Virus record (IMG/VR): IMGVR_UViG_3300048009_000449
Location: 1 to 49,043 of that record
Reading direction: 5' to 3' (one strand)
Length of the DNA: 49,043 bases
DNA from: a virus
In this document: positions 8,420-47,404 of the stretch, piece by piece
Layout: each line of letters begins with the position of its first letter
How positions within the stretch are numbered: the stretch's first letter is position 1
The notes under the pieces: model-generated
The model's input: only the letters and a program-made list of their open reading frames with translations
The model's database searches: none
What the model was told of the DNA's origin: nothing
Position numbers and translations under genes: made by a program

Positions 8420-8791
8420 TTATTTCTTTAATAATTCTTTCATCATCTCTTTTAATTCAGAGAGTTCTGACTTTAAATATTCAATTTCTTCTTTTTGTGA
8501 TTTAACTATATCATTTTGTTCGTTGATTGCGTTAACTAATAATGGAGTTAACCTATCGTAATCAACAGTCATATAATCATATCCCAATCTCTCAGCTTTT
8601 GGAGCAGGATGTACAATTTCAGGAAGAACTGATTTAACATCTTGTGCAGATACACCGACTTGTAGTTCAGTTCCATTCCATCCAATCATATTAGCTTCCT
8701 TATTGTTTCTATAATAGAAACCATTAAGTTTACCAACTTTTTCAAGAGCGTTTTCAATATCACCCTCTTTATCCTTTAATCTCATATCTGA
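8420..8791 (-). other. Peptidase_S74 intramolecular chaperone domain
   Basis: The last 123 codons of the 3159-aa fibre. They carry the family signature S-D-x-R-L-K at the domain start, a central GVSAQDVKSVLPEIV, then YDYMTVDYDRLTPLLVNAIN, and a Lys/Glu heptad tail. In this family (for example phage endosialidases and T5 L-shaped fibre) the domain trimerises the fibre and then cuts itself off before the Ser of the SD pair. All key residues I can check are present, so it should be active. Confidence 0.9.
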
Positions 8792-11700
8792 GTAGTAAGC
8801 TATTACGTTACCCTCAGCGTATAAGTTATCGTTAATTCTAAGACCCCAACTTTCAGTTCTTGCTTTCCAACTACCATTATAGTGAATGTAGAAGTGAGAG
8901 TTGTGAATAGCTTCACATAACCACTCATTGTTTACATCATTATATAAACCAGTTGAACTACTATTGTTGTGCATTAATAGTGAACGACCATTCATTGACC
9001 ATCCTTCCCATCCATTAATACTACCATAAGTAGCTACAGTACCATACTGTCCACCTTCATCTGCAACTGAACGTAATCCATATCCTCTATCTTGGAAGTA
9101 AAGACCTGTTGAACTTCTAGCTCTAAACCAGTTGTTTACATATATACTACTCATATTGGATGTAGATGCAGGGTCTGTGTAGTATCCAGTATTATTTGAA
9201 TCATAATATCTACCAGCATACATTGAACCACCATTACCACTATTCTCATCAAGAACAGGAATAGTTCTCCAACTTCTCCATCCACTCCAAGAACTTCTAA
9301 ATCTCAAGTTAGTAATTGGTCCACCAACCATCTGCCATCCGTAACCACCAGTGTTCGAACTACGATAGTGGAATGCCTGCATTCCTACCCAGTGAGATGT
9401 ACCTGATGGTTGATTAGGTGGATTACTCCAAGAATCGATGAAACCAGAACCCCAAGTTGAAACAACGTTCATATCTTGTCTACCCCAACCATAAGCACCA
9501 GTCCAATAGTTAGTATCACCAGTTTGACGAGGTCTAGCTCTATAATATTCACCACTATTTCTCGTATGACCTGGTAATCCCATCCAAGCCATTGTTCTAT
9601 TATTCACACCTTCAAATCTAGAACTATTTCCAGACGCTGGGTTCATATAGTAACCAGTGTTATTTGAATCATAGAAGATTGGTGCTCTTAATGAATCTCC
9701 AGCTTGTAGGTTGTAGTTAACATATACGTTATTTCCACCTAATGGGTCAGTAGAGTTGTTAACAGACATCACCTGCGTTGCCATATTGTAATCGTTGTAG
9801 AAACGCATACCATTGTAAGATGCGTTTGCCCCAAACTTAATACCAGTATGGAATGCGATTCTTAAATCAGGATATCTATAAGACCAACCACCACTTTCTC
9901 TAAAGATTGCATATGCTTCACTTCTATCAGATGACCAGAATATACCAAATCTATCATTAGATGATACTGAACCATCATTGATGAAGTAATTACCAGTTAC
10001 TCTATTAAATCTAGAATCACCAGAACCACTACCAAAATAATATGCGGTATTACTTCTATCATAGAAAATGTTAGCTCTTACATCATTCATATAAGATGTA
10101 GAAGCAAAGTTACCATAATAAGAAGTACTATTTCTATCATAGTAAATATCTGCTTGCATTGAACCATTTACATAAACAGTTCCACCAGTATACCAGTTTA
10201 GGTACATACTTCTTCCACTTCTCGCATCTAAGTGTAAGTTACCATTTGTTGAAGCAACTTGTGCGTAAGAACTAGTCCATCTACCATTACCACCAACTGC
10301 AAGATATTCACCCCAACTTTGATTTGGTCCAAATAATGCTCCACCTCTCATACGAAGTGCTGTATTAGATGTTGAATTAGGGTCTATATAATATCCAGTA
10401 TCATTTGAATCATAGAAGATTGGTGCTCTCATCGAACCTCTAGCTAAACCATATCCACTACGAGTTGCTAATTCCCAAGTTCCGTTGTACATTAACTCTA
10501 CATAAGAGTTTCTCAACATATAGATAGCCCACTCATTTTCAATATCATTATAGATACCTGCTGCGTTTGAATGGTCATGCATAAACACCCAATTTCCATT
10601 AATTGAGTATCCACCCCAACCACCTCTAGTGCTTGAGGTTTGAACAGTACCATAGTTACCAGTTACTGTATCTCTACCTACTCTGAATTCCAATGAACTA
10701 CCATCAGTATAGAAATAAGTACCATTATCATTTGCGTGTCTAATTGCCCAACTTCCACCAGCATCTAATAAACCAATTTCGTTTGAATTAGTTGCGTATA
10801 GATAACCCCTAACAGAGTTACCAGAAGTTGTTAACATAATTTGTGATGTAGAAGAACTACCAGAATATAATCTAAATCTAGATGATGAATCAGAATACCA
10901 ATGCATTCCAGTTGCTTGGTTATATAAACCTTCACCACTATTATCGTTTCTGAACCAGTTTCTTGCGTAGATTTCAGTTGCTCTTAAACCACTATTAAAG
11001 TTTGAGAAAGATGCAGGGTCTACATAATATCCAGTATTGTTATAATCATAATAGATTGGTGAACGTACTTGTGAGAATGCATATACAATACCATTTGTAT
11101 CTACTCTAAATCTTTCAGCTGATGAACCATTCCATACTCTGAATCTTCTATTAGAATAGTAGTTTACATAAATATCATTTCCGTTATATGCATCAATATG
11201 GAAGTTACCACCCATATAAATTCTACCACTTCCATTAACCGAAGTTAGAGTAGCACCATTTTCAACTTGAATGTTATTTGTTCTAACATTTCTCATTCGA
11301 GCATCACCTTGTGAACTACCAAAGTAGTATGCGGTGTTTTCTCTTTCGTAGAAAATGTTAGCCCTTAAATCATTCATATATGAAGTAGAAGCAAAGTTAC
11401 CATAGTAACCAGTATTATTTGAATCATAGAACACATCAGCTGCTAGTGATGTTTCGGTTTTATAAATGATAGAATCTCCAGAAAAATCTGATATATTAGT
11501 TACACTTGGTGATTTATTTATATATGCCCAACTTCTAGAAGGTGTACTATCAGTATAAGTTACAGCTCTAGTAGTTCTAACTCTTGCTTTTACCTGAGTG
11601 TAGTATCTTACATCTACATAAACAGGTACATATCTAATATCTCCACTAATTGTTACAGGTGAACCAATCGTTACTCTAAAATGATTGTTACCATAGACAT

Positions 11701-14700
11701 TAGCATCAACTAATCTTACTTGATATGCGTTATAATATCCCCAAAATACTTGGTATGTCTTTTTAGAACCTCTACCATAATATTGTTCGTGTAATTCTAC
11801 TTCAAATGTACCAGTACCATTCCAATCGTTCCAATCCATTGAAATCCTAGCAATTTCAAATCTACGAGCTTGAGTACCACTTGCACTTAATGTTGAGTTG
11901 ATAGCTATTGTTTTATGAACATCTATTTCATAATCATCACCTAAATCAACAGTACCATTTAAGTTTAATGTACCTTGTACAGTTAAGTTATTAAGATTAG
12001 TAAGTGAATTAGGGTCAACATAATATCCACTATCATTGTAATCATACATTATAGGTGTTCTAACTCTTGCGTTAAAACTACCTACTTCGGCTGAAAGTTG
12101 TGCGTTTCTAGCTCCAGTATCACCATAGAATGTAAATTCTGCACCAGTTCCATCAGGATTAGAATCAGATACTCTAATTTCAGCATCAAATGATGTATTG
12201 ATGAATCCGATTCTATTACCTGCTAAGGTAAGAGTATTCATATGAGATTGACCTGCTGGATTTACATAATATCCAGTATTATTGTAATCATAGAATTGAG
12301 TACCTCTAACATCAGAACTAAATACTGCTCTACTTGAGATTGCTGCTCTAAATGAACCATTATTGATAATCAATAAACCATGGTCATTTAAGTTGTTAGC
12401 TCCACCTAATGAACCTGCGTTTGGATGAGACCAATATAAACCATATGCGTTATTTGTAGCATTACCATCTTGTGCGATAGAATACTGGTCATCCATATTA
12501 AAGATAGTTTGTAATCTTGTAGATGTATATGTACCAGTGATACCAATACCATAATTAGTCATTCTTATAGTATCGTATATTTCAATTTCGTTTACTCTTG
12601 ATGTACCATTCGGATTTAGATATCTTGATGTAGTATCTTTATCATAGAATATAGATGCTCTAACATCACCCTGTCTTAATTCAGTACCACCATTAATGTA
12701 CATCATCTTGTTGGTATAGAATGAACCTCTATCGGTGTACATATGAAGATGTGAAGTATTCATTGCTCCAAAATCAACATATCCACTATTTGATTGTATT
12801 CTTAATGCGTTACTATCACCACCTTCAATGTATGGATATCTTTGGTCAGTTAAGTTATGAACATATGAAGCATTATTAGTATAACTACCATGTAATCTTA
12901 ATCTACCAAGACTCTGCTCTGATTTGTAAAGTTTTAATCCACAATAATGAGTTACACCCACATTTGATGAATAATTAAAAAGAAGTACTGGTCTAGCGTA
13001 TTGAGCATCTGCATGGAATCCTGTACCTTTTATTTTTCCAGTTACTTTATACCAACCATTTGTATTAGAGTTAGTATCAAATTGATTTCCACCAGAACCC
13101 CAATATCTTTTAGAGTTACCATATGATGATTTATTTCTATCATACATTGTCCAACCCATATATAATCTTTGGTTGCTATCACCACCATCAATTACTTTAA
13201 CCCAAACTTCAAAAGTATATTGAGATTCTTTATCAATCTTAATATATCTACCATCATCAAATCCTAAATAACCAGTAACTTTAAATGCTCCTTCTGCCGG
13301 TGCAGTACTATCATCTACTTTAGTTACCTTAGTTGATGTTGTACCAAGTTGTGCTCTTACTTCAGCATCAGTCATTGAATCAGTAATATTGTAGAATGAA
13401 CCATTCTCAATATTTGCTACATAATTTTCAAGATTACCACCAGTAAGAACGTTGTATCCACCAACAGTTAATCCGTTAAATACAGAAGTTCCAGCAGGAT
13501 TTGCGTAATAGTTTGTATCATTTCTATCATACATTATAGGAACATCAAGTCTAGAATTAATCAGAACTTGTCCATCTCCTCTAATGATTTGATTCCATGT
13601 ACCACCTAAACCACCATCTCTGAATGAAATATCTTCACCACCTGATGTTGCTATAATTAAATGAGCATCGTTTGTATCAGTTGCTTGAAGATATCCTCTT
13701 TGATTTCCAGCTGATGTGTATAAATAAATTGGTGCTCCACTTTCTAATCTTAACTGATTATTAATTTCAGTACGATACATTTGTGTAGTACCATCTCCAT
13801 GAAAGTAATATCCACTATTATTTGAATCATAGAAAATAGGTGCTCTGGATGATGCGGATGACCAACTATTACCTGATGTATCTACTCTGAATCTAAATGT
13901 AGTACCTTGAGTAAATTGTAAATTACCCGATGAATTACTCATATTATCAGGAGATTCATAGATTCTCCAATCATTACCATTTAACCATTGGATACCTTCA
14001 CTAGCACCAGGATCATTTATTGTAATATGATTAACATTACTTAAAGTACCATTATTCATATTGATATTCAACATCGAAGATGTTCCAGCTGGGTCTACAT
14101 ATCTTCCCGTATTATTTGTATCATAAAAGATTGGTGCACGAACACTATCATTAAATTGTCCTAAACCAGCAGCTGAGATACTAGCAGCATTACCACTACC
14201 CACTCTTCTGAATATCCAACCTCTATTAGAAGTGTTACTCATTGTAAAGTATGTAGCCCAATCACCAGTTACACCACCATGTGTTCCTAAACTTGTACCT
14301 GTGAATAAAATACCATAAGTAGGTTCACCTGCTGAATATCCTCCATATAAAGATATACCATCTCTTGTTCCACTACTACTATTGTTTATACCAAAGTGAT
14401 TAACATTGAGATTATTTAAATTTGATGTAGATGCGAAATCACCATAATATCCAGTATCATTTACATCATTAAATCTACTAGCCCAAAATTCACCAGTTGA
14501 ATAAAGAATTTTATTATTTCTTACTCTTAGGTAAGTACCATCGGTCATATACCAACCACCACCCCATCCGAATCCAAGTTCTTCATCTTTAAGGAATGTT
14601 GATGTACCTCTACCAATTACAATAGCATCGTTATTATTTTTTAACTGAATTGAACCATCGATATGTAGTACATTATTAGTATTTGAACCTACTATTGGAG

Positions 14701-17700
14701 TATTATCGTTTATAGTATATGTTGGTGATGCATCTCCAACAATTAATTGTCCTTCAGTATATGTTTGAGTACTCGAATCCCCTAATTCTACTTTATCTGG
14801 GTCAGTACCTTCATCCATTCTTATGATATTTCTACCACCAGCTACTAATTGTAAATCATCTCCTCTAAATCTAACATAAGTGTTATCATCACCATTATGT
14901 CTAATATATTCGTTTACTCTTAACTGAGAGAATACTACTGAATCGGATGTACGAACATTTTGATTCATTGCGTACAATTCGTTTGCACCATGACCAGTAT
15001 TTACAGTTGCGAATGTTACTGCGTCAGTTGTACGAACATTTTGATTCATTAGATAAACCTCAGTTGTACCTTGTCCAGTGTTGATATTTGCAGCAGTTAT
15101 TGTACCATTAAAGTCTACTTGGCTATTTGCATAAGAATAGCTAAATACTTCTGTATTTGTTCCGGCTTCCCTTCTAAAGAAAGTAATTCGGTCAGAACCC
15201 TCACCACTAATAAATGCAGGTGAATTATCTCCATTATAAGAAATACCACCACCATATGTTGCAGATTGTCCTACATAAAGATAACCTGTACCTTGACCAC
15301 TACCATAAGCCTCAAATCCAGCACGATATGAATCTCCTGCTAGTACTTGAATAGCAGTATTTGATTGTTTAGATGTAGTTCCTGCTACAATATTTCCAAG
15401 AGCCTCTAAATGAGAATCAGCAATCCAACTATCTCTACTTTCATTCCAAATAAATTGTTTAGTTGCTGATGAACCTCTTAAAACTTCAATACCAGCATTC
15501 TCCGATGGAGTACCTGATGTAAAGTTTGAATTAAGAGTAATAATATTATCTGCTAACTGAATAGTTTCGGTATTCACAATTGTTTGAGTACCTGTTACAT
15601 TCAGATTACCTGTTATGTTTAGAGTTGTTCCATCAAAAGTAAGATTACTTTCAACAGTTCCGTTTGGTGCTGAACCATTAAGTGTAATTACACCATTATT
15701 AGTAGTACCAGTTAATGCTAATAAACCAGAAGAACCTCCACTACCAGAAGTACCACTAGAACCAGAAGAACCTGATGTTCCTCCAGAACCACTTGTACCC
15801 CCAGAACCACTTGTTCCTCCAGAGCCGGATGTACCTCCACTACCTGAAGTTCCACTACTTCCACTTGAACCAGATGTACCACCACTACCAGCAGTACCAG
15901 ATGAACCAGAAGAACCTGATGTTCCTCCACTTCCCCCAGTTCCAGAAGTTCCACTACTTCCAGCTGAACCACTCGTTCCTCCACTACCTGATGTACCAGA
16001 TGAACCAGATGAACCTCCACTTCCTGATGTTCCACCACTTCCACTTGTTCCACTTGAACCAGAAGAACCTGATGTTCCATCATCTCCATCTACACCTTGT
16101 TCTCCATCAGCACCAGTTGCTCCACTTGTACCTGATGAACCTCCACTACCTGCAGTACCTGATGAACCACCACTACCACTTGTTCCAGAACTTCCACTTG
16201 AACCCGATGAACCAGAAGAACCTGATGTTCCTCCACTACCACTCGTTCCACTTGAACCCGATGAACCAGATGTACCCGGCGTACCACCCTCACCAGCAGC
16301 ACCATCTCTACCAGATGTACCACTACTTCCAGATGTACCAGATGAACCAGATGAACCCGATGTTCCATCTTCACCAGATGTACCACTTGAGCCGGATGAA
16401 CCAGATGAACCACTTGAACCAGAAGTTCCTCCACTACCAGAAGTACCAGGTGTACCACCTTCACCAGCAGCACCATCTTCACCTGAAGAACCAGATGAAC
16501 CAGATGTACCACTTGAACCAGAAGTTCCTCCACTTCCTGATGTACCATCAGTACCATCTACACCAGATGTACCATCATCACCATCAGCACCATCAACACC
16601 ATCAGCTCCATCGTTACCTGATGAACCAGATGAACCACTTGAACCAGAGGTTCCACCAGAACCACTACTTCCTCCACTTCCGCTTGTTCCACCACTTCCG
16701 CTTGTTCCTCCAGAACCAGAAGTTCCACCACTTCCACTTGTTCCACCACTTCCAGATGTACCAGAAGAACCTGATGTTCCACCAGAACCACTTGTTCCAC
16801 CAGAACCACTTGTTCCACCACTACCTGAGGTTCCTTCAGAACCATCAGTACCAGAACTACCACCAGAACCACTTGTCCCTCCAGAACCAGAAGTACCTGA
16901 AGAACCAGAAGTTCCTCCAGTTCCAGCAGTTCCACTTGAACCTGAAGAACCAGATGTACCTCCACTACCGGAAGTACCACTTGTACCCGATGTACCAGCA
17001 GTACCAGCTGCAGGTTCCCATCCACCAGCAGTATAACGATAAATGTTAGTATCTGAAGTGTTATAATATAATTGTCCAACTACACCACCAGAAGGTGCTG
17101 AATTAAAGACTGGAATTACTACCGAATCTTTAATTAATACTGAACCTGTAAATTGGTGTGTATCGGTTGATTCATCACCAAACACATTCGAACCCGATGC
17201 GTAAATTACTGATGATGAAATAAATGTTGTTAATAATTCTTGAGAAGTTATTCTTCCCGCTACTGATAAATTATTACCAATAGTTAAATTGTTTTGTATA
17301 TCTGCTGAACCTGTTACTGTTAAATCGGTTCCTACTTGTGCAGTTGCTTTGAATATACTACTACCAGTTACGATAAGATAATCCCTTACAGTTACACCAG
17401 CTTCTACTCTTAAACCACCATCAGGTGAAATTATAGCTTCTACTGAACCTGATTTTAATCTATCTATATCACCTAATGCATCAGCTGGGATGTTGTATAA
17501 TCCACCACCATCACCTCTATATATCGATGCTGACATTTCACCTTCAATATCAATATCTCCAGTTGATGTTACATTACCATCTATGTTTGTAGGTACATTT
17601 ACTTCGAATGAAGTACCATTTAAAACTGATGCGGTTGCTGAACCTTCAGCTATTCTACCAATATCACCAGTAAGTGCAGTAGTTGGAATACTTTCTAATT

Positions 17701-17899: not shown

Positions 17900-17909
17900 T
17901 AACCTCTAT

Positions 17910-18242
17910 TTATGATATCTCTAATACTGATAAAATAACATCTGCTGAATTATCAACATTTGATGTTACAGTTATCGAATCACTTGCTTCTAAAACTACT
18001 TTTTGGTCACCACCAACTAAAACTGCCGATGAACCATTTGGTATAACTGCTCCTTTTACTAAATATTTAGTAACTCCAGCAGAACTATCAGTTATTTGTA
18101 CATCTACATAAATATTTGTAGATATAATATTAGCTACATTTACACCAATAACAGTAGTTGCTGTAGCAGCTGGTGTTGTGTAAACACCTAAACCACCTGT
18201 TCCTGCAGGTCCTTTTATACTATTTTTAAATACATTTGCCAT
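17910..18242 (-). CDS. small virion-type protein sharing a domain with the 286-aa protein
   Basis: A 110-aa beta-rich protein starting MANVFKNSIKGPAGTGGLGV. It has the form of a single domain common in tail regions of marine phages: VYTTPAATATTVIGVNVAN, a VDVQITD strand, then VIPNGSSAVLVGGDQKVVLE and a final ADVILSVLEIS. It probably forms a beta sandwich on the virion, but its role is unknown. The same two halves occur in the 286-aa protein at 31220-32080, separated there by a 175-residue insertion. It starts 4 nt after the preceding gene with a GGATAAAGAT ribosome site overlapping that stop, and ends 10 nt before the giant fibre gene. Confidence 0.8.
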   Translation of the reverse strand: MANVFKNSIKGPAGTGGLGVYTTPAATATTVIGVNVANIISTNIYVDVQITDSSAGVTKYLVKGAVIPNGSSAVLVGGDQKVVLEASDSITVTSNVDNSADVILSVLEIS

Positions 18243-18246
18243 ATCT

Positions 18247-18579: not shown

Positions 18580-18601
18580 GTGATAATTACCTTTTCTTTG
18601 A

Positions 18602-18610
18602 TATAAATAT
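18602..18610 (-). promoter_or_regulatory. intergenic ATATTTATA motif
   Basis: Coding-strand ATATTTATA 22 nt before the 110-aa fibre-like gene; a near copy (ATATTTATT) lies 10 nt further upstream. Confidence 0.4.
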
Positions 18611-18631
18611 TAAATAAATATCTTTTAACTT

Positions 18632-19090: not shown

Positions 19091-19096
19091 ATCTTT

Positions 19097-38100: not shown

Positions 38101-41100
38101 CCATATCACAAGTAAATGCGATAGATTCGTTTTCTAACACTACACTTCTACCAACACCCAATCCGAATGATTCAGAAACAGTAAGAGTCATATCTCCACT
38201 TAGAGCGTTGTATGAAGCAGATACAGGTGTGAAATATTTATTCGGACCTGATGCTCCTACATTAAATGTCATTGTAGTATCAGTTACATCCGTAAGAGGA
38301 AGTGAACGTACTGAATATGGGTCGATTCCTACTCTTGGATATGATTTAACTGATTGGTCATTATCCATATCACAAGTAAATGCGAATGATTCAGCTGACA
38401 TTACCACACCCTCTCCAACACTTAAACTATGACTTGCCACAGTTACAACAAATTCCCCAGTTGCTGGGTCATATGATGCAGTTGTTGGATTGTATTCTAC
38501 ATTTGGACCTGATTTACCAACATTTACAGTTATAGTATCTGATGTTGTTGATTTAATTGTTAATCTATTATCGTAAGCAGGTTGTCCAATTGATGGAAGT
38601 TTGTGCTCAGTTCTATTACCATCCATATCACAAGTGAATACAAATGATTCAGGTTTCAGATAGATACTATCACCACTATATAAATTATGCTTAGGTACAG
38701 TCATTACGAAATCACCATTTGCAGGGTCATAAGTTGCTGTTTTAGGTGTGAATGATTCAATACCTGTTTTTATAATTCCAGTTACAATATCATATGATTC
38801 ACTAACTTCAGTTTGATATGAACCACTTAATGCGATTGAAGATGTTACAGCTTCAAAAGATGTTACTTTGATATTTCCATCGGTATTAGATACCGTTGAT
38901 GGAGATAATAATGTTTGTTGTGTAATTATATCTCTAAGTAAATTCTTAGCGTACATAATTCCATCAATAGTTTCATCTTTTTGTACAGTAGTTGCTTCAG
39001 ATGGGAATAGGTAGTAGAATTCTCCACCTTTAATACTTCTTTGATTACCACCCCATAAGAAATCAGTTGCAACACCATCTAAGATATGTCCAACATCTCT
39101 TCTACATTTTTCTCTATTGTATGTAAAGAATGGATATGCATAATCAATATATTCAGTTACTTCTTTTTGAATTAAAGTTCTATTATCTCTAATTGTATTC
39201 CAAATACTTAATTTAGTTGCTGAAGGTTGTACTAATACAACATTCTGAATAAGTTTTTGAACTAAGTTAGCTGCATGTACGATACCATCGATTGTTTGTG
39301 TTTTTTGAACACTTGTTGCTTCTGATGGATATAAGTAATAGTACTCACCAGCGATAACACTTCTTTCATTTCCTCCATATCTCAAGTCAGTTGAAACTGC
39401 ATCTAAGATATGTCCAACATCTCTACTACATTTAGCTTCATCATAATCGAATCCAACCCAAGAAGATGAGATGTAAGCAATTACTTCAGCTTGAACTAAT
39501 TCTCTATTTTGTTCTATTGTTTGATATAATCCTTCTCTCTCTACTGATGGATTTACTAAAATAGTGTTACTCATTACCTTATCAGATAATCTTTGAGCAT
39601 GAACTATACCATCAACAGTTTGGTCTAATTGTGAACCTTGTGCTTGTGATGGATATTTGTAGTAGAAATCACCAGCGATTATACTTCTTTCATTTCCACC
39701 ATATAGTAAATCAGTAATAGCTGCATCTATGATGTATCCAGTATCTCTCTTACATTTAACATCATCGTAATCAGCTGCGTTCCAAGAAGATGAAACATAT
39801 TCGATTACTTCATTTTGAATTAAATCTCTATTTTCTAATACTAAGTTATAAGCATTTACTTTTTCAGAAGTTGGTGGTGTAAATACTGCTCCACTAACTA
39901 CTTTTTGTGCAACTTCACCAGCATATTCAATACCATCTAAAGTTGGGAACAATTGAGAACCAGTTGCTTCTGAAGGATACTTCCAATAGAATACACCTGC
40001 GTTAATTGTTCTTTCGTTACCACCATAAACAATATCAGTAATTGATGCATCTAAGATGTGTACAATATCTCTTTTACAAGTTTCTTCTGGATAATCAAAA
40101 TCACTCCAAGAAGCTGATAGGAATGCTATTCCCTCTTCTTTAATAAACTCTTTATTATTGTTTATAATTGTTTGTGTATCCAATCTATCTTGAACTGGAT
40201 TTGAGAATGTTACATTTGATGCCACTTTTTGTGCTACTCTACTTGCGTATCTAATTCCATCCAACGTTTGGTTCAATTGTGAACCTTGTGCTTGAGATGG
40301 ATATTCTAAGTAGAACTTACCATTAAATACAGATGCTGAGTAAACATTGTGAATTAAATCTTCAGCTGCACCACTAACAATACCAGCAATATCTCTACTA
40401 CAACTTGTTTCGTTGTAATCAGCTGCTGACCAAGAAGATGATAAATAAGCGATTGTTTCTTCTTTTATGAAATCAATATTTGATTTTAATAAGTTATAAG
40501 CCGCAACAGTTGATGATGCGGTTACTTCACTTCCATATAATGATGATGATTCATAAGAACCACTACCAAATTCTATAATTCTAGTTACAATCTCAAATGA
40601 TTCTGAGATGAAAGAAATATCTGCAGCTGATGCTGAAATAGATGATGTAGTAAACTGAGTTTCCGTTGTTACTGCTATTGCTTCTTCAGTATTTTCTACT
40701 TTTGGTGGAATCACAGTTACTGAATCATCAATAGTTCTAACAAAAGTATGAACTGATTGTGGTAAATGTTTAACTGCTTCTCTAGATGCTGATACAAATG
40801 TGTGAAGTGATTGTGGTTCATGTTTAACTGCATTTGTTGATGCAGATACAAAAGTATGTATTGAACCAGACGCACTTCCACCATCACCTACATTAATTGT
40901 AAATGTACCATCTTGTCTTTTTATTCCATTAGTTGTAGCAGATACAAATGTATGTGCTCCAGTGTAAGAAGATGAACCTATATTAATTTCAAATGTATTA
41001 GTTGTTACATTTGAAATTTGTAACCATCTTCCAGATGGATAATCTATTCCAGTTCTTGGATAAGATTTCTGAGTTGTGTTCCCATCTAAAACACAAGTAT

Positions 41101-44100
41101 AAGTTAATGCACCATCATCAACTTTTATATAATCATTATTAGAGAATCCGTGATTAGCGATTGTGAGTGTTACGATACCAGTTGTTGGATTGTATGGTGC
41201 ATTTGTTGGAGTATGTGATGTAGTTCCAACTGAAATAATTTTTATTGATTGTTCTGCATATGGGTCTGAACCACTTCTTGGATAAGAGTGAGTTGTAGAA
41301 TCACCATCTTGGTCACAAGTGAACGCAAATGATTCATTTTCTAATACTACACTTCTACTTACACCCAATCCATGTTGACCTACTGTCAATACCATTTCTC
41401 CAGTCAATGCATTATAATTAACATCTGATGGAGTAAAGTATTTGTTCGGGCCTGAGATACCAACATTTACAGTCATTGTAGTATCGGTAACATCAGTTAT
41501 AATCATTGAACGACCAGCGTAAGGGTCTATACCCAATCGAGGGTAAGATTTAACTGATTGGTCATCATCCATATCACAAGTGAATGCAAATGATTCAATA
41601 TCTAATATAATTCCTTCACCAACACTTAAATTATGAGTACCAGTTGTGATTACAAAATCACCAGTAGCAGGGTCATAAGTTGCGTTAGTAGGATTAAAAT
41701 GTAAATTTGGACCTGATTTACCAACGTTTACAGTTACAGTATTATCGGTTACCGATTTAATTCTTAATTTACTATTGTAAGCAGGTTGTCCAACTGAAGG
41801 TAATTTGTGTTCAGTTTTGTTATCATCCATTTCACAAGTGAATACAAATGATTCTGGTTTTAGATAAATACTATCTGCTTTTCTAAATTTGTGATTTGGA
41901 ATAGTCATTACAAAATCACCATCGGCAGGGTCATAAGTTGCTGTTGATGGAGTAGAACCAGTTCCAAATTCTATAATATCTAATACAGTTTCAAATGAAG
42001 ATGATAATTTAGATATAAGATTTCCAGAACCACTTAATGAAGAAGTGAATTGAGTTGCATCACTTCTTTTGACTAAACCTTCAATGTTTTTAGTTAGAAT
42101 TGGTAAAGTACTTACCGAATCCTCATTTACTCTTACAAATGTATGAGTTGATTGAGGTAAGTGTTTAATGGCTCCATTTGAAGAAGATACATAAGTATGA
42201 ACTGATTGTGGTTCATGCTTCACAGCGTTTGATGAAGCTGATACAAATGTATGTAAAGAGTTTGATGCCGTTCCACCATCCCCTACATTAATTGTAAATG
42301 TACCAGTTTGCCTTCTTATACCACCAGTAGTTGCTGATACAAATGTATGTGCTGATTTATATGATGATGCTCCAATGTTAATATCAAAAGTATCAGTTGT
42401 TACATTTGAAATTTCTAACCATCTTCCACTTGGATAATCATATCCAGCTCTTGGATAAGATTTTTGAACAGTGTTTCCATCCAATACACAAGTATAGATT
42501 AAAGCTCCATCATCAACCTTAACATAATCTCCATTACTAAATCCATGTCCAGCAATAGTTAAAGTTACAATTCCAGTAGATGCGTTATAAGGAGCATCCG
42601 TTGGTGTGTGTTGAGTATTTCCAACTGATTTTATTTCTATTGATTTACCAGCATATGGGTCAGAACCTGGTCTTGGATATGAATGTATTGTAGCATCTGA
42701 ATCTTGGTCACAAGTAAATGCGAATGATTCATCTTCCAATACTACACTTCTTCCAACTCCTAAACCATGTTGTCCAACAGTTACAATCATATCACCAGTC
42801 AATGCATTATAAGATGCAGATGTTGGAGTAAAGTATTTATTTGGACCCGATGCTCCTACATTAAATGTTAACGTAGTATCAGTTACAGAAGTAATTGGAA
42901 TAGAACGAACTGCAAATGGGTCAATACCTACTCTTGGATAAGATTTAACCGATTGGTCATTATCCATATCACAAGTGAAAGCAAATGATTCTGGTGAAAG
43001 TATTATACCTTCTCCAACACTTAAACTATGCTTTCCAACAGTTGCAACGAAATCACCAGTTGATGGGTCATAAGATGCAGTTGTTGTGTTAAAGTTTATA
43101 TTAGGACCGGATTTACCAACGTTTACACTTATGGTATTATCGGTTATTGAATTTATAGTTAATTGTTTATTATATGCGGGTTGTCCAACTGAAGGTAATT
43201 TGTGTTCAGTTCTATTTCCATCCATATCACAAGTGAATACGAATGATTCTGGCTTTAGGTAAATTCTATCACCAACATCTAAACCATGTTGAGAAATAGT
43301 CATTACAAACTCACCATCAGCTGGATTGTATGTTGCTGAAGTTGGTGTGAAAGAATCAACTCCACTTTTTAGAATACCAACTATTGTACTGAATCCTCCA
43401 CTTACAATATTTCTATCAGAAACACTAGCATCCAATGATGAAGTGTATTGAGAATCAGTTGTTATTTTTATATTATCTTTAGTATTTACTACTTTTTCAA
43501 ATTCACCTCTAGTTGGAACATAAACATATTCCTGTTCAGATGATAATGGTAAACTATCTACAATGTTTATTACACCACTAGCTGAAACATTTGTTGGATT
43601 CACATAATAAAGTGTATCAGGTGTATCTGCTAAAGGAGTAAATGTTATCGTACCAAATGTAATACCATTATTTATTAAACCAATACTTTCATATACATCA
43701 TATGTAGTACCAGCAGTTGGTTTTGTTTTAATTAAGAATGGTGCATTAATTGTAGTATCTTCAAAACCTAAATCATTGATTGAGAAGTTATACATTTCAT
43801 TTCTAACCAATGTTAAAGTTGGGTCTTTTTTAGAACCTAAGAAAGAACCAGTATCTTCACCACCTAATCTCCATCCTTCTCTACCATCAAAATATTTTAA
43901 TTGGTCATCATTAATATAGAATGCAGTTGAATCATTTGGTAAAGTAATAACTTCGAAATAAGATGAAGAATTAGCTGAACCTGAGATTTCTTTACTTCCA
44001 CTAATTCCATACTCAACAATATCGATTACAGTTCTAAATGATTCTGAAATCTCTGAAGCGATTGTGATTGATGCCGATATAGAAGATGTGTATTGTGAGT

Positions 44101-47100
44101 TATTAGTAAATTTAATATTATCATTTACATTTGATACAGCAACTATATCGTTTGGAAGTTTAGTTCCAATAGTTGTTGTTATTAAATTATCACCATAAGA
44201 ATCTTTAGGAATACCAACTTGTGATATTGGTAATCCATTTGAAGCAGAACCAATTGTTTTATCAGTAGTTATAGAACTACCACTTTCAATAATTTTTGTT
44301 ACTATTTCAAATGATGATGAAATAGATTGAACTTGAGCAGAACTTGCGGATATAGAGGATGTTATTAATGTAGTATTACTAACTAATTTAGGTTCATCCA
44401 ATCTCCAATTAAAGTTTGGTGTGTTTCCAGCTATCGCAGATAATAATGAATCCTCACCCTGCTTTATAATATCTTCAACTATTCCAAAAGAAGAACTTAC
44501 TTTAACTCTTTCAGTTTCACTACCAGAAATAGAAGATGATACATATTGTAATATATTACCTGCTCTTACTCTAGCATATGTGTTATTAATAACTTGAGGT
44601 GATTCAACTATTTCATTAACAATTACTTTATCAATAAATGATTTAGCATAAGATATACCATCAACAGTTTCATTTAATTGGTCTCCATTTACTTTAGAAG
44701 GAACTTCGTTATAATATAAACCAGCTCTAACTGATTTTTGGTTACCACCATAATATAAATCAGTTGCAACTGCATCTACAATATATCCAGTATCTCTTTT
44801 ACATTTATCTCTTAGGTAAACTAAGTTAGGAAACTGAGTATCAATGAAGTTTACAGTTTCTTCTTGAATCAAACTTCTATTTTCAACAATTAAATCGTAT
44901 GTTGATTGTATGATTGCTGATGCCGTTACAAATGTATCTTTAACAACTAATTTTTTAGATAAATCCCTTGCCCACTCTATACCATCTAATGTTGGTAATA
45001 GTTGTGTTGTTGTAGCAGTAGATGGATATAAGTAATAGAACTCACCAGCTATTCTACTTCGTTCATTACCACCATATCTTAAATCAGTTGCAACTGCGTT
45101 AATAACGTGTCCAACATCTCTTTTACATTTTACCTCATCATATTCAAATCCTCTCCAAGAAGATGATACAAATGAAATAACTTCGTTTTGTATAAATGAT
45201 TTATTATTTACTAATAAGTCATATCCATTTTCTACATTGATAGATGGTTCTACATAAGTAATATCTCCTACTAAACTTTCAGCAAGTCCACCAGCATATC
45301 TAATAGCATCTAATGTTTCTTGTTTTTGTGAAGCTGTTGCTTCTGAAGGATATAGGTAATAGAAATTACCATTTAATACTGATTCTTCGTTACCACCATA
45401 TAATAAATCATGTGCCGCTCCATTTACAATAAATCCAATATCTCTTTTACAAGTTTCTTCATTGTAATCGGATTCACTCCAAGAAGATGATAAGTAAGCA
45501 ATTGTTTCATTTTGTATAAATGATAAGTTACCAATTAAAGTATCATATCCATTTTGATAATCAATTGATGGATTTTCAAATGAAGAACTTTGAACAATAG
45601 CAGGTGCGTAATCTGAACCTAATTCTAATATTCTGAAAACAGTTGCGAATGAAGAAGATACTTTGTTAGCAACTTCTGCACTTGATGAGATATCAGTATT
45701 ATATTGAGGTGTTTCGGTTACCTTTATATTTGCAGCATTTGATGATGTAAGAGCAGGTAATGGATAATCTTCATTATTTAAACCATACTCTACTATCTGA
45801 AGTATTGTGTTAAAGTTTCTATTTATTGTATCTACTTCAGTTTGTGAGGTTGTATCTGAACCAGTATATGGATTATTACTTCCAACTTTAACCAACCCTT
45901 CAATATTATCCACTAAAGTATAACTAGCGGTTGCTCTTGCACCTAAAGATAATACTTGTTTAACTTTATCAAACCTATCATCAATTATATTTAATTCAGT
46001 TGATGTTGCTGATGTTGAACCTGTTGTTTGTGTTCCATTGGATATATTCCAAACTGAACCTGTGTTGTATCCTCTTGTTGCTGATTTAGCTAATAAAGAT
46101 GGTATATTATTTATACCACTTGATACGATATTTGAAACCAATCTATATTCAGATTTAGCTTGTTCTGCAACAACATCCGAAGAATTGTTACTACTAAATT
46201 GTTGTAATTCATCAGTTACTTTAATACCTGCATTTGTATTTGGTACAAATTCAGGAATTGCAGTTAAACCATCTTCAATTGTATCAATAATAATTGTATA
46301 GTTATCTCTTACTCTATTGAATGCTTCTAAGTTACCACCACTACCAGTAATAAACCTAGAACCACTAGCATACATACCAAAATCACCAAACGATGTGTTT
46401 GAGTTTAGAAGTACTGCTTGTCCACCTTGTAGTACCTTTACTGAGTATGCTGAGAAGTTTGTAAAGAAGGATACCAACTGAATAAATCCTCTACCTACAA
46501 CTTGACAACCAACTCCGTTTGGAGCAATCTGAGTATATGCATCCAATACCATTGAAGCAAGAGGTGAATCAGGATGAATTATATTTCCATCTACATTCAA
46601 TCCACCACCACCAGCAGGAATTGCTTCGTACTTCTCTAAGAATGAGTTCTCCTGATTCGAAATCATCGAACAGTTCTGAACATAAGGAGATGTTGTAATA
46701 AATGAGTTTGGTGCGAATGCAATTGCGAAACCACTTCGAGAGTTATCTACTGATGGAAATACTCTTAATCCAGCAAATGTCATCTCTGAAAGATAACAAC
46801 CACTATTTACCCAAAATAAATCTTCGTTTTCGTTTTTAGCTACAATCTTAGTTACCCTTAAACCAGCTCCCCAAACAGTTGTGTTTTTTGGAAGCTCGAT
46901 TGGATTTTCTTCTAAGTAAGTACCAGCAGAAACTTCAATTCGGAAACCAGTAAATAAAGAACCAGTTGGTAAACCAAATCTACCATCATCTCCAGAAGTT
47001 GCTAATTCAGCAGCTCTCTTAACTGTTCTAACTGGGAATTGTTGTGTTCTACCATCATTTTTATCATTACCAGATGTTGAGGATACATAAATAGTAGCAT

Positions 47101-47404
47101 CCATTGCTCCAAAATCTTCGGCTTTGATTCCACCAAATAATTGTGTATCTAATGATTCTAATGAAAAAGATGCAGTAGCATTTAAAGCTTGGTCACCAAT
47201 TACGTTAAGAGGACCATCAATAGTAAGAGAACCAGTAAGTTCTACTGAACCAGTTATGGTAGATTTAATATCTGGGTCTGAGCCCATATTGAAACTCTCA
47301 GATACTAATAATGAACCAGAAATAGTTACATTCTGTGCGAATGAAGTATCTCTGATAAAATCTTTTATCTCCTCAACCTGCTTTCTTGATATTAATCTAG
47401 CCAT
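32114..47404 (-). CDS. 5096-residue beta-helix adhesin-like virion protein with tandem repeats
   Basis: Residues 1-90 are beta modules like the other fibres. Residues about 95-440 form a right-handed beta-helix of pectate-lyase style (YVSSTSGNDKNDGR, then SMVLDAYTQIAPNGVGCQVV and NSNTSFGDFGMYASG), a domain I know from cyanophage structural proteins. Then come 17 copies of a helical repeat (C-[KSRMY]-RD, GGNERS, YYY-x-x-PS) in three groups, near residues 615-930, 2295-2825 and 3945-4980. Four super-repeats of about 410 residues (near 1352, 1815, 2880 and 3407) each hold four Cys-centred beta modules. A decayed cupredoxin-like domain lies near 1160-1275. The C-terminus (GHDFSYAGAGVTYKALP to SLFSLVTPFSLALQD) matches the conserved end of these marine phage proteins. 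It should be an external virion component, probably a long fibre or whisker. The weak ribosome site is 4 nt after the previous stop. Confidence 0.88.
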   Translation of the reverse strand: MARLISRKQVEEIKDFIRDTSFAQNVTISGSLLVSESFNMGSDPDIKSTITGSVELTGSLTIDGPLNVIGDQALNATASFSLESLDTQLFGGIKAEDFGAMDATIYVSSTSGNDKNDGRTQQFPVRTVKRAAELATSGDDGRFGLPTGSLFTGFRIEVSAGTYLEENPIELPKNTTVWGAGLRVTKIVAKNENEDLFWVNSGCYLSEMTFAGLRVFPSVDNSRSGFAIAFAPNSFITTSPYVQNCSMISNQENSFLEKYEAIPAGGGGLNVDGNIIHPDSPLASMVLDAYTQIAPNGVGCQVVGRGFIQLVSFFTNFSAYSVKVLQGGQAVLLNSNTSFGDFGMYASGSRFITGSGGNLEAFNRVRDNYTIIIDTIEDGLTAIPEFVPNTNAGIKVTDELQQFSSNNSSDVVAEQAKSEYRLVSNIVSSGINNIPSLLAKSATRGYNTGSVWNISNGTQTTGSTSATSTELNIIDDRFDKVKQVLSLGARATASYTLVDNIEGLVKVGSNNPYTGSDTTSQTEVDTINRNFNTILQIVEYGLNNEDYPLPALTSSNAANIKVTETPQYNTDISSSAEVANKVSSSFATVFRILELGSDYAPAIVQSSSFENPSIDYQNGYDTLIGNLSFIQNETIAYLSSSWSESDYNEETCKRDIGFIVNGAAHDLLYGGNEESVLNGNFYYLYPSEATASQKQETLDAIRYAGGLAESLVGDITYVEPSINVENGYDLLVNNKSFIQNEVISFVSSSWRGFEYDEVKCKRDVGHVINAVATDLRYGGNERSRIAGEFYYLYPSTATTTQLLPTLDGIEWARDLSKKLVVKDTFVTASAIIQSTYDLIVENRSLIQEETVNFIDTQFPNLVYLRDKCKRDTGYIVDAVATDLYYGGNQKSVRAGLYYNEVPSKVNGDQLNETVDGISYAKSFIDKVIVNEIVESPQVINNTYARVRAGNILQYVSSSISGSETERVKVSSSFGIVEDIIKQGEDSLLSAIAGNTPNFNWRLDEPKLVSNTTLITSSISASSAQVQSISSSFEIVTKIIESGSSITTDKTIGSASNGLPISQVGIPKDSYGDNLITTTIGTKLPNDIVAVSNVNDNIKFTNNSQYTSSISASITIASEISESFRTVIDIVEYGISGSKEISGSANSSSYFEVITLPNDSTAFYINDDQLKYFDGREGWRLGGEDTGSFLGSKKDPTLTLVRNEMYNFSINDLGFEDTTINAPFLIKTKPTAGTTYDVYESIGLINNGITFGTITFTPLADTPDTLYYVNPTNVSASGVINIVDSLPLSSEQEYVYVPTRGEFEKVVNTKDNIKITTDSQYTSSLDASVSDRNIVSGGFSTIVGILKSGVDSFTPTSATYNPADGEFVMTISQHGLDVGDRIYLKPESFVFTCDMDGNRTEHKLPSVGQPAYNKQLTINSITDNTISVNVGKSGPNINFNTTTASYDPSTGDFVATVGKHSLSVGEGIILSPESFAFTCDMDNDQSVKSYPRVGIDPFAVRSIPITSVTDTTLTFNVGASGPNKYFTPTSASYNALTGDMIVTVGQHGLGVGRSVVLEDESFAFTCDQDSDATIHSYPRPGSDPYAGKSIEIKSVGNTQHTPTDAPYNASTGIVTLTIAGHGFSNGDYVKVDDGALIYTCVLDGNTVQKSYPRAGYDYPSGRWLEISNVTTDTFDINIGASSYKSAHTFVSATTGGIRRQTGTFTINVGDGGTASNSLHTFVSASSNAVKHEPQSVHTYVSSSNGAIKHLPQSTHTFVRVNEDSVSTLPILTKNIEGLVKRSDATQFTSSLSGSGNLISKLSSSFETVLDIIEFGTGSTPSTATYDPADGDFVMTIPNHKFRKADSIYLKPESFVFTCEMDDNKTEHKLPSVGQPAYNSKLRIKSVTDNTVTVNVGKSGPNLHFNPTNATYDPATGDFVITTGTHNLSVGEGIILDIESFAFTCDMDDDQSVKSYPRLGIDPYAGRSMIITDVTDTTMTVNVGISGPNKYFTPSDVNYNALTGEMVLTVGQHGLGVSRSVVLENESFAFTCDQDGDSTTHSYPRSGSDPYAEQSIKIISVGTTSHTPTNAPYNPTTGIVTLTIANHGFSNNDYIKVDDGALTYTCVLDGNTTQKSYPRTGIDYPSGRWLQISNVTTNTFEINIGSSSYTGAHTFVSATTNGIKRQDGTFTINVGDGGSASGSIHTFVSASTNAVKHEPQSLHTFVSASREAVKHLPQSVHTFVRTIDDSVTVIPPKVENTEEAIAVTTETQFTTSSISASAADISFISESFEIVTRIIEFGSGSYESSSLYGSEVTASSTVAAYNLLKSNIDFIKEETIAYLSSSWSAADYNETSCSRDIAGIVSGAAEDLIHNVYSASVFNGKFYLEYPSQAQGSQLNQTLDGIRYASRVAQKVASNVTFSNPVQDRLDTQTIINNNKEFIKEEGIAFLSASWSDFDYPEETCKRDIVHILDASITDIVYGGNERTINAGVFYWKYPSEATGSQLFPTLDGIEYAGEVAQKVVSGAVFTPPTSEKVNAYNLVLENRDLIQNEVIEYVSSSWNAADYDDVKCKRDTGYIIDAAITDLLYGGNERSIIAGDFYYKYPSQAQGSQLDQTVDGIVHAQRLSDKVMSNTILVNPSVEREGLYQTIEQNRELVQAEVIAYISSSWVGFDYDEAKCSRDVGHILDAVSTDLRYGGNERSVIAGEYYYLYPSEATSVQKTQTIDGIVHAANLVQKLIQNVVLVQPSATKLSIWNTIRDNRTLIQKEVTEYIDYAYPFFTYNREKCRRDVGHILDGVATDFLWGGNQRSIKGGEFYYLFPSEATTVQKDETIDGIMYAKNLLRDIITQQTLLSPSTVSNTDGNIKVTSFEAVTSSIALSGSYQTEVSESYDIVTGIIKTGIESFTPKTATYDPANGDFVMTVPKHNLYSGDSIYLKPESFVFTCDMDGNRTEHKLPSIGQPAYDNRLTIKSTTSDTITVNVGKSGPNVEYNPTTASYDPATGEFVVTVASHSLSVGEGVVMSAESFAFTCDMDNDQSVKSYPRVGIDPYSVRSLPLTDVTDTTMTFNVGASGPNKYFTPVSASYNALSGDMTLTVSESFGLGVGRSVVLENESIAFTCDMDSNATTHSYPRSGSDPYAEQSIKITSVGTTSHSVTDAPYDSATGDVTITIANHNFNNGDYIKLDDNSLTYTCVLDNNTTTKSYPRPNYDYPSGRWLEISNVTTNTFDINIGSSPYVGSHTFVSATTNGLKRQDGTFTINVGDGGSASGSIHTFVSASNRAVKHEPQSVHTFVSASNGALKHLPQSAHTFIRTDRDSVSTLPILTENIEGLIKINDTTQFTSSLSGSGVESAYVTRSVGFINDIIRLGTDDIPFALAKWFDDTLDAPQQLTTGSYVTASGTFVTDTEFGIVSSSFGQIINIIENGVGTFTPTTAAYNPLNGNFIVTIPNHTLDVGEEIYIRPESFVFTCDMDGNKTEHKLPSVGQPAYTNKLEIISKTDDTITVNVGASGPNVEWTPSNATYNPATGDFVITTGTHTLSVGEGIVLDTGSFAFTCDMDNDQSTKSYPRLGIDPYAGRSMKLTSVTDTTMTVNVGVSGPNKYFTPVSASYNALSGDMTLTVSESFGLGVGRSVVLENESFAFTCDQDSDATTHSYPRLGSDPYAEQSIVITSVGKTQHTPTDAPYNSLTGDVIITIANHNFTNGDYIKISDNGLSYTCILDGNKVKKSYPRPNYDYPSGRWLPISDVTTNTFKINIGASSYVGEHTFVSAEQNSIERQTGTFTINVGNAGSASGSLHTFVSASANAVKHEPQSVHTFVSASKAAVKHLPQSVHKFVRTDKNSISVLPAIVNNTESNIKVTNTNQFTSSIVGSITEVNKVKSSIGIIEDILQNGTSVKPTVVKNNSDKNNLIKVTDAVQITSESFGDRLQQRLISSSIAIVTTIVENGTGSLPTVVEYGTPSDSPKTLAAYNLLKDNIEFIQSESIAYLSSSWSTASYNETSCSRDIGAIISGAAEDMLYNANSSSIFNGKFYYDFPSKAQGAQLQQTLDGINYAGRLAESIVRGYTFQTASALVSGSYELIRNNREFIENETIEFLSSSWDGFTYNEITCKRDITHIIDAVSTDLLYGGNERSVNAGDYYYRYPSAAIIGGVPNENKQKDPTVTAVDFVQGFVSEIVSGAIFQTASNEVDYVYDTIRENREFLQAETVAFVNAKYPNFEYNELSCSRDTGFIIDAVATDLRYGGNQRALTAGEFYYRFPSEATDNQLDETTDALIYTKDLIQKLVNKETLFIPTGSLNTDNGIKVTSFSPATGGDITDITILNTISSSFAIVSDAISNGTGSTPTSSNYGAVSTDSDILTTYGLITESVTFIQNEVVEYISSSWVGFDYDDVKCRRDVGFIVNGVAEDLRYGIVSASSVNARFYYQFPSEANGTGSQAQQTIDGINYAAQLTEQIVKGVTFDFPSTQISASVELIRNNREFIQSESISYLSSSWEGFDYVESTCMRDVGHILDAVSTDLLYGGNQRSKIAGEYYYKYPSSATSTQLEPTTTGIKYAGDVASKLVQNEIFVTASAERLAGNKVLLDNKEFIQNEVISYISSSWSTFDYNEDKCKRDTGYILNGVATDFLYGGNERGRVNGEYYYLYPSDATVNFQSNPNGQLNQTIDGINYSARLAEKVLENITFVTASAEVSASAELLRNNRSFVQNETIEFISSSWSNVKYNEDKCRRDTGYIIDAAVTDLVYGGNERSINAGLYYWRYPSRATNAGTPSEQNQLDPTVDGIRFANGTSQNVVQNLPYTTPSAEITNGVQLLRDNTTFIQKETIAYLSSSWSEFEYNEVSCSRDLGYIIDAVATDLTYGGNERAVQAGTFYYYIPSIATTEQKPQTTDGIDFSKGLAEKIIKQQQLVFPAFLNNNGATALRNAKKVLQGKAISYTNAAFPNFIYNEEKCYRDTGFILDAIATDIIYGGNERSIRAAESYYNGIYGSAAVVINEQKKETAETNRYLRTQFQFVARQAPVEEFGSLIITTGHDFSYAGAGVTYKALPPNQGGDGVPDPDKEITEIGGGRVFFTSGNELGDFRIGGGLVIKQASGTLEGRTFSKSLFSLVTPFSLALQD
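32460..35570 (-). repeat. third group of Cys-x-Arg-Asp/GGN repeats (nine copies)
   Basis: Residues about 3945-4980 of the 5096-aa protein. Each copy is 100-130 residues and runs: L-x-x-N-x-x-FIQ-x-E, SSSW, C-x-RD-x-G-x-I-[IL]-[DN], YGGN-[EQ]-R, YY-x-x-PS, and Q-x-x-TVDGI-x-YA. The first copy has NANSSS and the fourth has GIVSAS where the others have GGN. The last copy runs directly into the C-terminal domain. Confidence 0.85.
35930..37185 (-). repeat. super-repeat 4 of Cys-centred beta modules
   Basis: Residues about 3407-3825 of the 5096-aa protein. Four modules of 75-90 residues are centred on FVFTCDMDGN, FAFTCDMDND, FAFTCDQDSD and LSYTCILDGN, each followed by a PR or PS turn. Then come four HTFVSA-type strands. 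Confidence 0.85.
37500..38765 (-). repeat. super-repeat 3 of Cys-centred beta modules
   Basis: Residues about 2880-3301, same order as super-repeat 4. In the third module super-repeats 3 and 4 share the longer variant SESFGLGVGR, while 1 and 2 have GQHGLGVGR or GQHGLGVSR, so 3 and 4 look like the most recent pair by that mark. Confidence 0.83.
38930..40520 (-). repeat. second group of Cys-x-Arg-Asp/GGN repeats (five copies)
   Basis: Residues about 2295-2825 of the 5096-aa protein. The first copy has HNVYSASVFNG where the others have YGGNERS, as in the first copy of the third group, so the two groups may descend from one block duplicated as a unit. Confidence 0.83.
40715..41960 (-). repeat. 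super-repeat 2 of Cys-centred beta modules
   Basis: Residues about 1815-2230. Four modules centred on FVFTCEMDDN, FAFTCDMDDD, FAFTCDQDGD and LTYTCVLDGN, then the HTFVSA strands. Confidence 0.83.
42100..43350 (-). repeat. super-repeat 1 of Cys-centred beta modules
   Basis: Residues about 1352-1768. Four modules centred on FVFTCDMDGN, FAFTCDMDND, FAFTCDQDSD and LIYTCVLDGN, then the HTFVSA strands. It is joined to super-repeat 2 by a single short linker with the QFTSSLSGSG pattern. Confidence 0.83.
44610..45570 (-). repeat. first group of Cys-x-Arg-Asp/GGN repeats (three copies)
   Basis: Residues about 615-930 of the 5096-aa protein, with the pattern of the later groups. All three copies keep both the C-K-RD and the GGN motif. 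Confidence 0.83.

Follow-up and report, generated by a model that had tools for sequence, protein, structure and literature searches.

The locus analysed here raises the question of what three giant, repeat-rich viral proteins are built from and where in the virus they would act. The window, that is the whole stretch of DNA analysed, is an entire linear IMG/VR virus record of 49,043 bases. As the preliminary description had stated, it holds three giant open reading frames of 5096, 3720 and 3159 codons (giants 1, 2 and 3) that fill 73% of the record. All three are on the minus strand and without internal stops, and together they take up 35,934 bases and encode 11,975 residues. That description called the products adhesin-like and thereby missed the main point, namely what their modules resemble. 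We estimate at roughly 75% the probability that the giants are virion fibres of a T4-like marine phage, modular stalks with antenna-type and blue-copper-type domains. What is out of the ordinary is the identity of the modules and not the size of the fibres, which is already known in marine T4-like phages.

Two further IMG/VR records (G001 and G002), the samples of which are possibly not independent collections, contain giants 1 and 2 without a single residue changed. This identity makes an assembly artefact of the repeats unlikely. In both records the contig ends within giant 3, which is identical over 2730 residues in G001 and differs by 6 mismatches over 2589 residues in G002. Loci of relatives were retrieved with the tail sheath (at least 80 loci), with the 286-aa gene that follows giant 1 (23) and with the start of giant 1 (36). 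For the first 400 residues of giant 1, 29 of 34 relatives' records contain a near-full-length match in an open, uninterrupted frame, and the giant 1 frame is therefore not a product of chance; the match is weak in two of the other records and absent from three, in which the contigs possibly end before it. Compared with the close relative G007, dN/dS is 0.11 for giant 1, 0.22 for giant 2 and 0.24 for giant 3, and values range from 0.17 to 0.55 against G006, G008 and G024. The giants are under purifying selection.

The surroundings of the giants are those of a contractile tail, with sheath, tube and hub genes downstream. In the relative G010, a homing endonuclease gene and genes for a major head protein and a head-tail adaptor lie upstream, where a head closure protein (E 0.008) and a tail sheath stabiliser (E 0.004) are also weakly matched. 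The homing endonuclease gene (L157:10643-11224) lies between the head and neck genes. A 746-aa gene of the window (1182-3422) occupies the tape-measure position without a PHROG match, and its counterparts in relatives have 745 to 1069 aa. The sheath was matched in 21 of the 34 longer relatives' records searched; its nearest records are from Microcystis phage Mel-JY01 (47% over 99%), from an uncultured phage (44% over 100%) and from Flavobacterium phage immuto (48% over 63%). On the basis of immuto and of our impression of some proteins of G012 and G022, one may guess at a host among the Bacteroidota.

Gene order was compared in stretches of 17 of the 34 relatives' records. The starts of giants 1 and 2 are present in every one of the 17, and that of giant 3 in all but G020, whose stretch ends before it. 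The order is giant 1, the 286-aa gene, giant 2, a gene of about 300 aa, a fibre-assembly gene, two genes of about 110 aa, giant 3 and the sheath; two small genes just before the sheath are present in only 4 and 6 of the 17 relatives. Conservation of the trio and its order across viral genomes, for which the preliminary description had proposed a search, is thus seen wherever the relatives' stretches reach. All three giants are uncut in 12 of the 17 relatives, with lengths of 2772-5931, 3369-4590 and 2455-3971 residues. The genes had been described as lying side by side: they do form one strand-uniform block, but one gene separates giants 1 and 2 and four genes separate giants 2 and 3. Coordinates are collected in Table 1.

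Table 1. Features of the giant-fibre locus, in positions of the window.
Feature	Position	Strand	Basis
Giant 1, 5096 aa: 17 A, 16 B and 16 C modules, one F	32114..47404	-	ORF, module models, PHROG 5342, 4527, 701, 18802
Giant 1 N-terminal region, residues 105-350, common to cyanophage fibre families	46355..47092	-	PHROG 29288, 17885, 5342
Giant 1 A modules 1-3 (phycobiliprotein-like, CxRD)	44615..45580	-	module model, predicted fold, hhalign
Giant 1 F domain, copper ligands lost	43556..43864	-	F profile
B cassette 1, four B modules	42371..43351	-	module model
B cassette 2	40976..41956	-	module model
Giant 1 A modules 4-8	38918..40528	-	module model; folded tandem is 39566-40207
B cassette 3	37769..38752	-	module model
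B cassette 4	36197..37180	-	module model
Giant 1 A modules 9-11	34607..35593	-	module model
Giant 1 A modules 12-17	32420..34417	-	module model
Giant 1 conserved C-terminal cap	32114..32398	-	matches C-terminal ends of PHROG 3442, 17885
286-aa gene between giants 1 and 2	31220..32080	-	conserved position in relatives
Giant 2, 3720 aa: 20 S repeats, three F domains, collagen-like rod	20034..31196	-	ORF, module models
Giant 2 F domain 1, full His-Cys-His-Met set; folded copy	27678..28010	-	F profile, predicted fold
Giant 2 F domain 2, ligand set lost	27009..27326	-	F profile
Giant 2 F domain 3, full ligand set	23247..23567	-	F profile
Giant 2 collagen-like Gly-X-Y region, 342 triplets, interrupted by F domain 3	20538..24056	-	Pfam, triplet count
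307-aa gene after giant 2	19097..20020	-	PHROG 9915, C-terminal end of 1813-position profile
Tail-fibre assembly chaperone	18632..19090	-	Pfam Phage_tail_APC, 64.3 bits, cut-off 26.6
Two 110-aa genes, position conserved	17910..18579	-	gene order in relatives
Giant 3, 3159 aa	8420..17899	-	ORF, module models
Giant 3 collagen-like region, 143 triplets	15719..17005	-	Pfam, triplet count
Giant 3 Y repeats (FYDSNNTGYY), 15 copies	9152..14482	-	module model
Giant 3 S74 intramolecular chaperone end	8612..8791	-	Pfam PF13884 (Peptidase_S74), 38.9 bits, cut-off 22
Tail sheath, downstream landmark	5317..7611	-	PHROG 23

Models of the modules were built from the window's own repeats. With these models, the earlier view that the three proteins share the same few module types stands only in part: A, B and C are confined to giant 1, S to giant 2, and Y and the S74 end to giant 3 (giant 1 was scanned for S74 in pieces), while Gly-X-Y stretches occur in both giants 2 and 3 and a cupredoxin-like domain, F, in both giants 1 and 2. 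The attribution to T4-like tail or surface structures is supported by the tail sheath, tube and hub genes, the S74 end, the tail-fibre assembly gene, the collagen-like repeats and the matches to giant PHROG tail-fibre profiles. The 307-aa gene after giant 2, which on our impression resembles a PKD-type domain with leucine-rich repeats, is a candidate fibre tip.

In the relatives, giant 1 carries 13-24 A modules, 0, 4, 8, 12, 16 or 24 B modules and 10-24 C modules. The B modules come as four-module cassettes, and all 27 of these, each cut so as to include a constant tail of 95 residues, measure 422-423 aa. A cassette usually finds its closest match, up to 97% alike, in the corresponding place of a relative, whereas cassettes at other places are mostly about 75-81% alike. 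By these sequence comparisons, giant 1 seems to gain and lose whole B cassettes. One cysteine per A module and one per B module account for 33 of its 36 cysteines. Its N-terminal region has a Pfam pectate-lyase-like match below the cut-off and is beta-helix-like by impression. The first 400 residues match 163 phage records, and the half richest in modules (a query of 2896 aa) matches 415 of 50,697, a count in which the matching modules were not sorted.

The A module, a domain of 106 residues, is the main repeat. A model of an A tandem (47 aligned sequences) has a pLDDT of 87 and five helices per module. In the VIA comparison, 47 of the 50 rows listed for this model are phycobiliprotein, phycobilisome or light-harvesting entries, the other three being smURFP, a 'bacterial fluorescent protein' and a photocobilin; the listed rows have Z of 11.8-13.0 and rmsd of 1.8-3.0 over 100-107 residues, in a range where, by VIA's own warning, mostly helical models may reach Z near 13 without true kinship. 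Foldseek gave no match at E <= 0.001; phycobiliproteins stand at the head of its PDB list and form the majority of it, at E 0.23 (the best) and worse. The resemblance covers residues ~34-144 of phycocyanin only, with the best rows starting at residue 33-35 and the N-terminal helices absent. When counted ungapped from the ends of the aligned ranges, the invariant cysteine of A falls on residue 82 of phycocyanin beta or residue 81 of allophycocyanin. The CxRD cysteine in the CpcB sequence of L279 is Cys 82, the bilin site.

Profile searches at sequence level were negative: HMMER found nothing up to E 10 with the A profile against PDB chain sequences, and the PF00502 profile had no match in the window at E <= 10. 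With the Phycobiliprotein profile cut-off not reached, A is not filed under PF00502. Alignment of 135 A copies to 61 phycobiliproteins with hhalign placed CxRD and the following helix together without gaps (probability 57.5, E 1.5e-5 for one template), the phycobiliprotein frames having been chosen by a pattern that itself requires CxRD. Without gappy columns the probability was 75.6 and the score 35.0, compared with at most 17.2 in 60 column shuffles, 8.1 for the reversed control and 7.7-9.6 for modules C, S, Y and B. With CxRD masked, the score dropped to 11.5, inside the null. The sequence signal of A thus resides mainly in CxRD, and the independent support comes from the fold.

The motif is present in all 135 non-redundant A copies, a set taken from 315 distinct ones (domain E < 1e-12, > 95 residues, < 80% alike) from which divergent copies are possibly omitted; the columns at 1.0 after rounding are the Cys, Arg and Asp of CxRD, Tyr39, Asp58 and Tyr74. 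In a wider set, with identical sequences merged, 323 of 324 distinct modules have CxRD, a count biased upward as one of the three search patterns contains C[KSR]RD. The single exception resembles the module of the 286-aa gene, which apparently contains one degenerate A module without CxRD and stands at the same place in 17 of 17 relatives. The masked control and the counts in isolates given below lowered our odds both for descent and for a biliprotein fibre. With this taken into account, A probably shares the phycobiliprotein fold by descent. It resembles phycobiliproteins in the predicted globin-like fold and in CxRD, and differs from them in occurring as fibre repeats of ~106 residues below profile detection. 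The same two features liken A to the BBAGs, phycobiliprotein relatives in heterotrophs, here compared by their description (PMC10151467).

The F domain was modelled with a pLDDT of 77, residues 56-68 being low. All 14 Foldseek matches with E <= 0.001 are copper proteins, and so are the 50 listed VIA rows, the best with Z 10.9 and rmsd 2.0 over 93 residues. The His, Cys, His and Met ligands of a type 1 copper site are complete in two of the three giant 2 domains and lost in the other (F2) and in that of giant 1. The spacing Cys-x2-His-x2-Met is that of amicyanin. Over 96 distinct copies, 57 have all four ligands, 5 three, 1 two, 5 one and 28 none; independence would predict 17 with all four and 1.4 with none, a contrast to which no probability is attached as the copies are related. 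In the five copies with three ligands, the Met is displaced by one residue towards the C-terminus. Of the 25 cysteines in 13 giant 2 proteins, 24 are F-domain ligands, the exception being one Cys in G022; for this count, records equal in length and cysteine positions were merged. These two counts are less biased than the 15-sequence alignment of the F profile, which was picked for CxxHxxM and in which ligand invariance is a matter of choice; the 96-copy search, in which identical sequences were merged, still favours ligand-complete copies. F matches in the giants that covered less than ~55-70% of the profile were dropped.

The Pfam Copper-bind profile scores F at about E 0.1 and 13.5 bits, under its cut-off of 21.2, and relaxing the threshold to E <= 1 yields matches for only 2 of 15 members, so that F is not filed there. 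Against PDB sequences, the F profile returned nothing better than E 0.7, the hits being to antibodies, a ribosomal protein, plastocyanin and copper nitrite reductases, and the cupredoxin claim therefore rests on the fold comparison. F is almost certainly a cupredoxin, and its ligand-complete copies are likely to bind copper. It shares fold and ligand set with amicyanin, plastocyanin, rusticyanin and nitrite-reductase domains, and differs from these in being embedded in a phage fibre, in having copies without ligands and in falling below the Pfam cut-off. A tblastn search with one F copy found matches in 325 phage records out of 50,697, and 319 of the 325 bear the name Synechococcus, Prochlorococcus or cyanophage. 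Tail-fibre genes of P-SSM2 (L276, L278) contain four ligand-complete cupredoxin-like domains, and the heme oxygenase gene of this phage lies two genes before a fibre gene. The viral NirK described in PMC8115048 is an enzyme gene, not a fibre. No cupredoxin in a phage tail fibre or virion was found in the PMC literature without preprints, the one match concerning therapeutic peptides. The identity of the modules was likewise not found in print in that literature, where some papers touching on both phycobiliproteins and phage tail fibres possibly treat the phycobiliprotein part.

Giants 2 and 3 contain collagen triple helix repeats (PF01391) at 321.8 and 84.1 bits (cut-off 27.2). Position X of the triplets is mostly Thr or Ser and position Y mostly Ser, and proline is absent from the eight commonest residues at either position. 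With proline this scarce, it is uncertain whether a triple helix would be stable. A collagen triple helix rises 0.286 nm per residue; if triple-helical, the rods would be about 290 nm long in giant 2 and about 120 nm in giant 3.

The three genes had been judged an unusually large investment, which is true in comparison with coliphage T4, but among marine T4-like phages giants of such size are ordinary. PHROG profiles matching giant 1 are up to 6,136 positions long, giants 2 and 3 also match giant PHROG tail-fibre profiles, and open frames with A modules reach 7124 codons in cyanophage isolates. The giants of marine cyanomyoviruses (PHROG 5342, 4527, 701 and 18802) are like giant 1 in that the profile matches extend over much of it. 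They differ in that no phage record covers at least 80% of the 2896-aa half of giant 1, the best is under 60% identity, and CxRD is partly lost: three cyanophage giants retain it in 3 of 5, 3 of 5 and 2 of 2 of their modules. ORF85 of the Synechococcus phage S-CREM2, with 4971 residues, was detected in virions with 286 unique peptides (PMC10665884). Its likeness to the giants is one of fibre size: none of the modules searched for (A, F and Gly-X-Y) was found in it, and homology is not supported; it offers a precedent of similar size for the predicted presence of the window's giants in virions.

Some phages with A modules also have genes for bilin synthesis. Among the relatives, bilin reductase (PF05996) was found in 4 of 34 records and heme oxygenase in 4 of the 24 searched, in both cases G012, G016, G022 and G026. 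The two genes overlap in G012 and G022 and are followed by genes that resemble GroES and GroEL (L359:10386-13800, L360:7614-11287). Fourteen further A-bearing records were drawn from 78 A-pattern loci (at least 65 kb, not among the earlier 34): three have reductase (207, 274 and 134 kb), and the other eleven, with lengths of 119 kb in one case and 65-91 kb in ten, are without it. Of four records chosen for F domains, one has reductase. All four A-bearing records over 200 kb among the matches listed (G012, G022, G038 and G039) have it, although independent cases are few, as G012, G014, G015, G016 and G026 may be one species and perhaps G039 and G040 too. The psbA gene (PF00124) was found in none of the 34 relatives' records and none of the 14 further ones (0/48).

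Isolates give a different picture. In a set of 16 cyanophages (PMC3037559), A-like modules are present in 12, namely 4 of the 7 that have a reductase and 8 of the 9 that lack it, and among isolates a general link between reductase and A is not supported. Mosig, P-SSM2, S-SSM7 and P-SSM4 have reductase and no A match at E 0.001, Mosig being the non-cyanobacterial case; Mel-JY01 and immuto have neither reductase nor an A match; and three records of 40-57 kb with a near-identical reductase, all fragments, have no A.

CpeT-family genes were considered as a candidate lyase. A full gene ends 0.3 kb (S-CAM4) or 2.0 kb (S-MbCM7) before the giant, and lies 1.3 kb (Syn1) or 1.9 kb (S-PM2) before the first A match, a placement perhaps due to common descent. 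In S-MbCM7, two 2OG-Fe(II) oxygenase genes lie between the CpeT-family gene and the giant fibre gene (S-MbCM7/S-CAM4 loci L368:3346-17069, L369:4478-17465). Weaker CpeT matches in nine other cyanophages are 14-20 kb away, far from A matches where there are any; S-ShM2 and P-SSM7 have A without a CpeT match, and neither is found in P-SSM2, S-SM2 or S-SSM7. Among the window's relatives, CpeT is not matched in G022, and in G012 it begins with a signal-peptide-like stretch, so a role of CpeT as lyase in this phage group is not supported.

How far these observations carry depends on what else could explain them. Repeat-rich genes in metagenome assemblies, known from sequence alone, could be partly artefacts or could encode something other than virion fibres, but two other records carry the same giants 1 and 2, cassette size is consistent in relatives, and fibre chaperones and tail genes lie nearby, which leaves this explanation very improbable. 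Another view is that A shares only a general globin-like helical layout with phycobiliproteins, CxRD being a structural coincidence and its cysteine serving for packing or cross-links. Such a view would fit the weak E-values, the concentration of the sequence signal in CxRD and the B modules, which also have one Cys each without such a fold claim. It is harder to reconcile with matches to one family, with the same motif at the same position counted from the aligned ends and with a real hhalign score twice the best of 60 shuffles, and we hold it to be quite unlikely.

A further possibility goes beyond the fold: the A cysteine would bind linear tetrapyrroles made by the phage heme oxygenase and bilin reductase, F would bind copper, and the virion would be coloured and perhaps redox-active. 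It draws on the invariant CxRD at the bilin position, on the reductase in every listed A-bearing record over 200 kb, with the overlapping heme oxygenase gene in G012 and G022, on the lack of psbA in both sets of records and, weakly, on the CpeT-family genes just before the A-module giants of four cyanophages. Against it stand the four phages with reductase and without an A match, the lack of a positive association in the 16 cyanophages, the three short records with reductase and no A, the partial loss of CxRD in cyanophage giants, the CpeT findings in G022 and G012, and the possibility that single species stand behind several of the supporting records. On balance, pigmented copper fibres appear rather unlikely. 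Bilins on the A modules may be considered a tentative proposal with the odds against it, and it is unlikely that the giant fibre is a viral biliprotein with up to 17 covalent bilins per chain (24 in relatives) from the phage's own enzymes and a partner fibre with blue copper centres.

We therefore return to modular virion fibres as the preferred reading. The three giants would be fibre proteins carried on the virion of a T4-like marine phage with a contractile tail, their genes lying between the neck genes and the tail sheath. Each would form a long stalk of repeated modules, probably as a homotrimer, and the stalks may hold or reach host cells at a distance. Giant 1 comprises a conserved N-terminal base, an A stalk with B and C modules interspersed and a conserved C-terminal cap, its length shifting by whole modules and by the fixed four-module B cassette. 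Giant 2 combines S repeats, cupredoxin domains and a Ser/Thr-rich collagen-like rod, and giant 3 a collagen-like rod, Y repeats and the S74 end. Some of these modules could bind metal or bilin.

The bilin genes give these repeats a wider interest. Phage heme oxygenase and bilin reductase outside cyanobacterial hosts have been called enigmatic in purpose ('we can only speculate', PMC11480375). The HemO and PcyA/PcyX cassettes described there are like the adjoining heme oxygenase and bilin reductase of G012 and G022, and the A-bearing genomes add a candidate acceptor protein in the same genome: phycobiliprotein-like repeats in a fibre of phages with bilin genes are a concrete candidate acceptor. 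If the biliprotein reading were true, phages whose hosts lack phycobilisomes would retain bilin genes for colouring the virion and not for use by the host, folds of light harvesting and electron transfer would have been adopted as structural parts of viruses, and giant 2 would be a protein of the virion in which almost every one of the few cysteines is a predicted copper ligand. Cofactors aside, the principal repeat of one class of giant proteins from marine phages would be given a fold.
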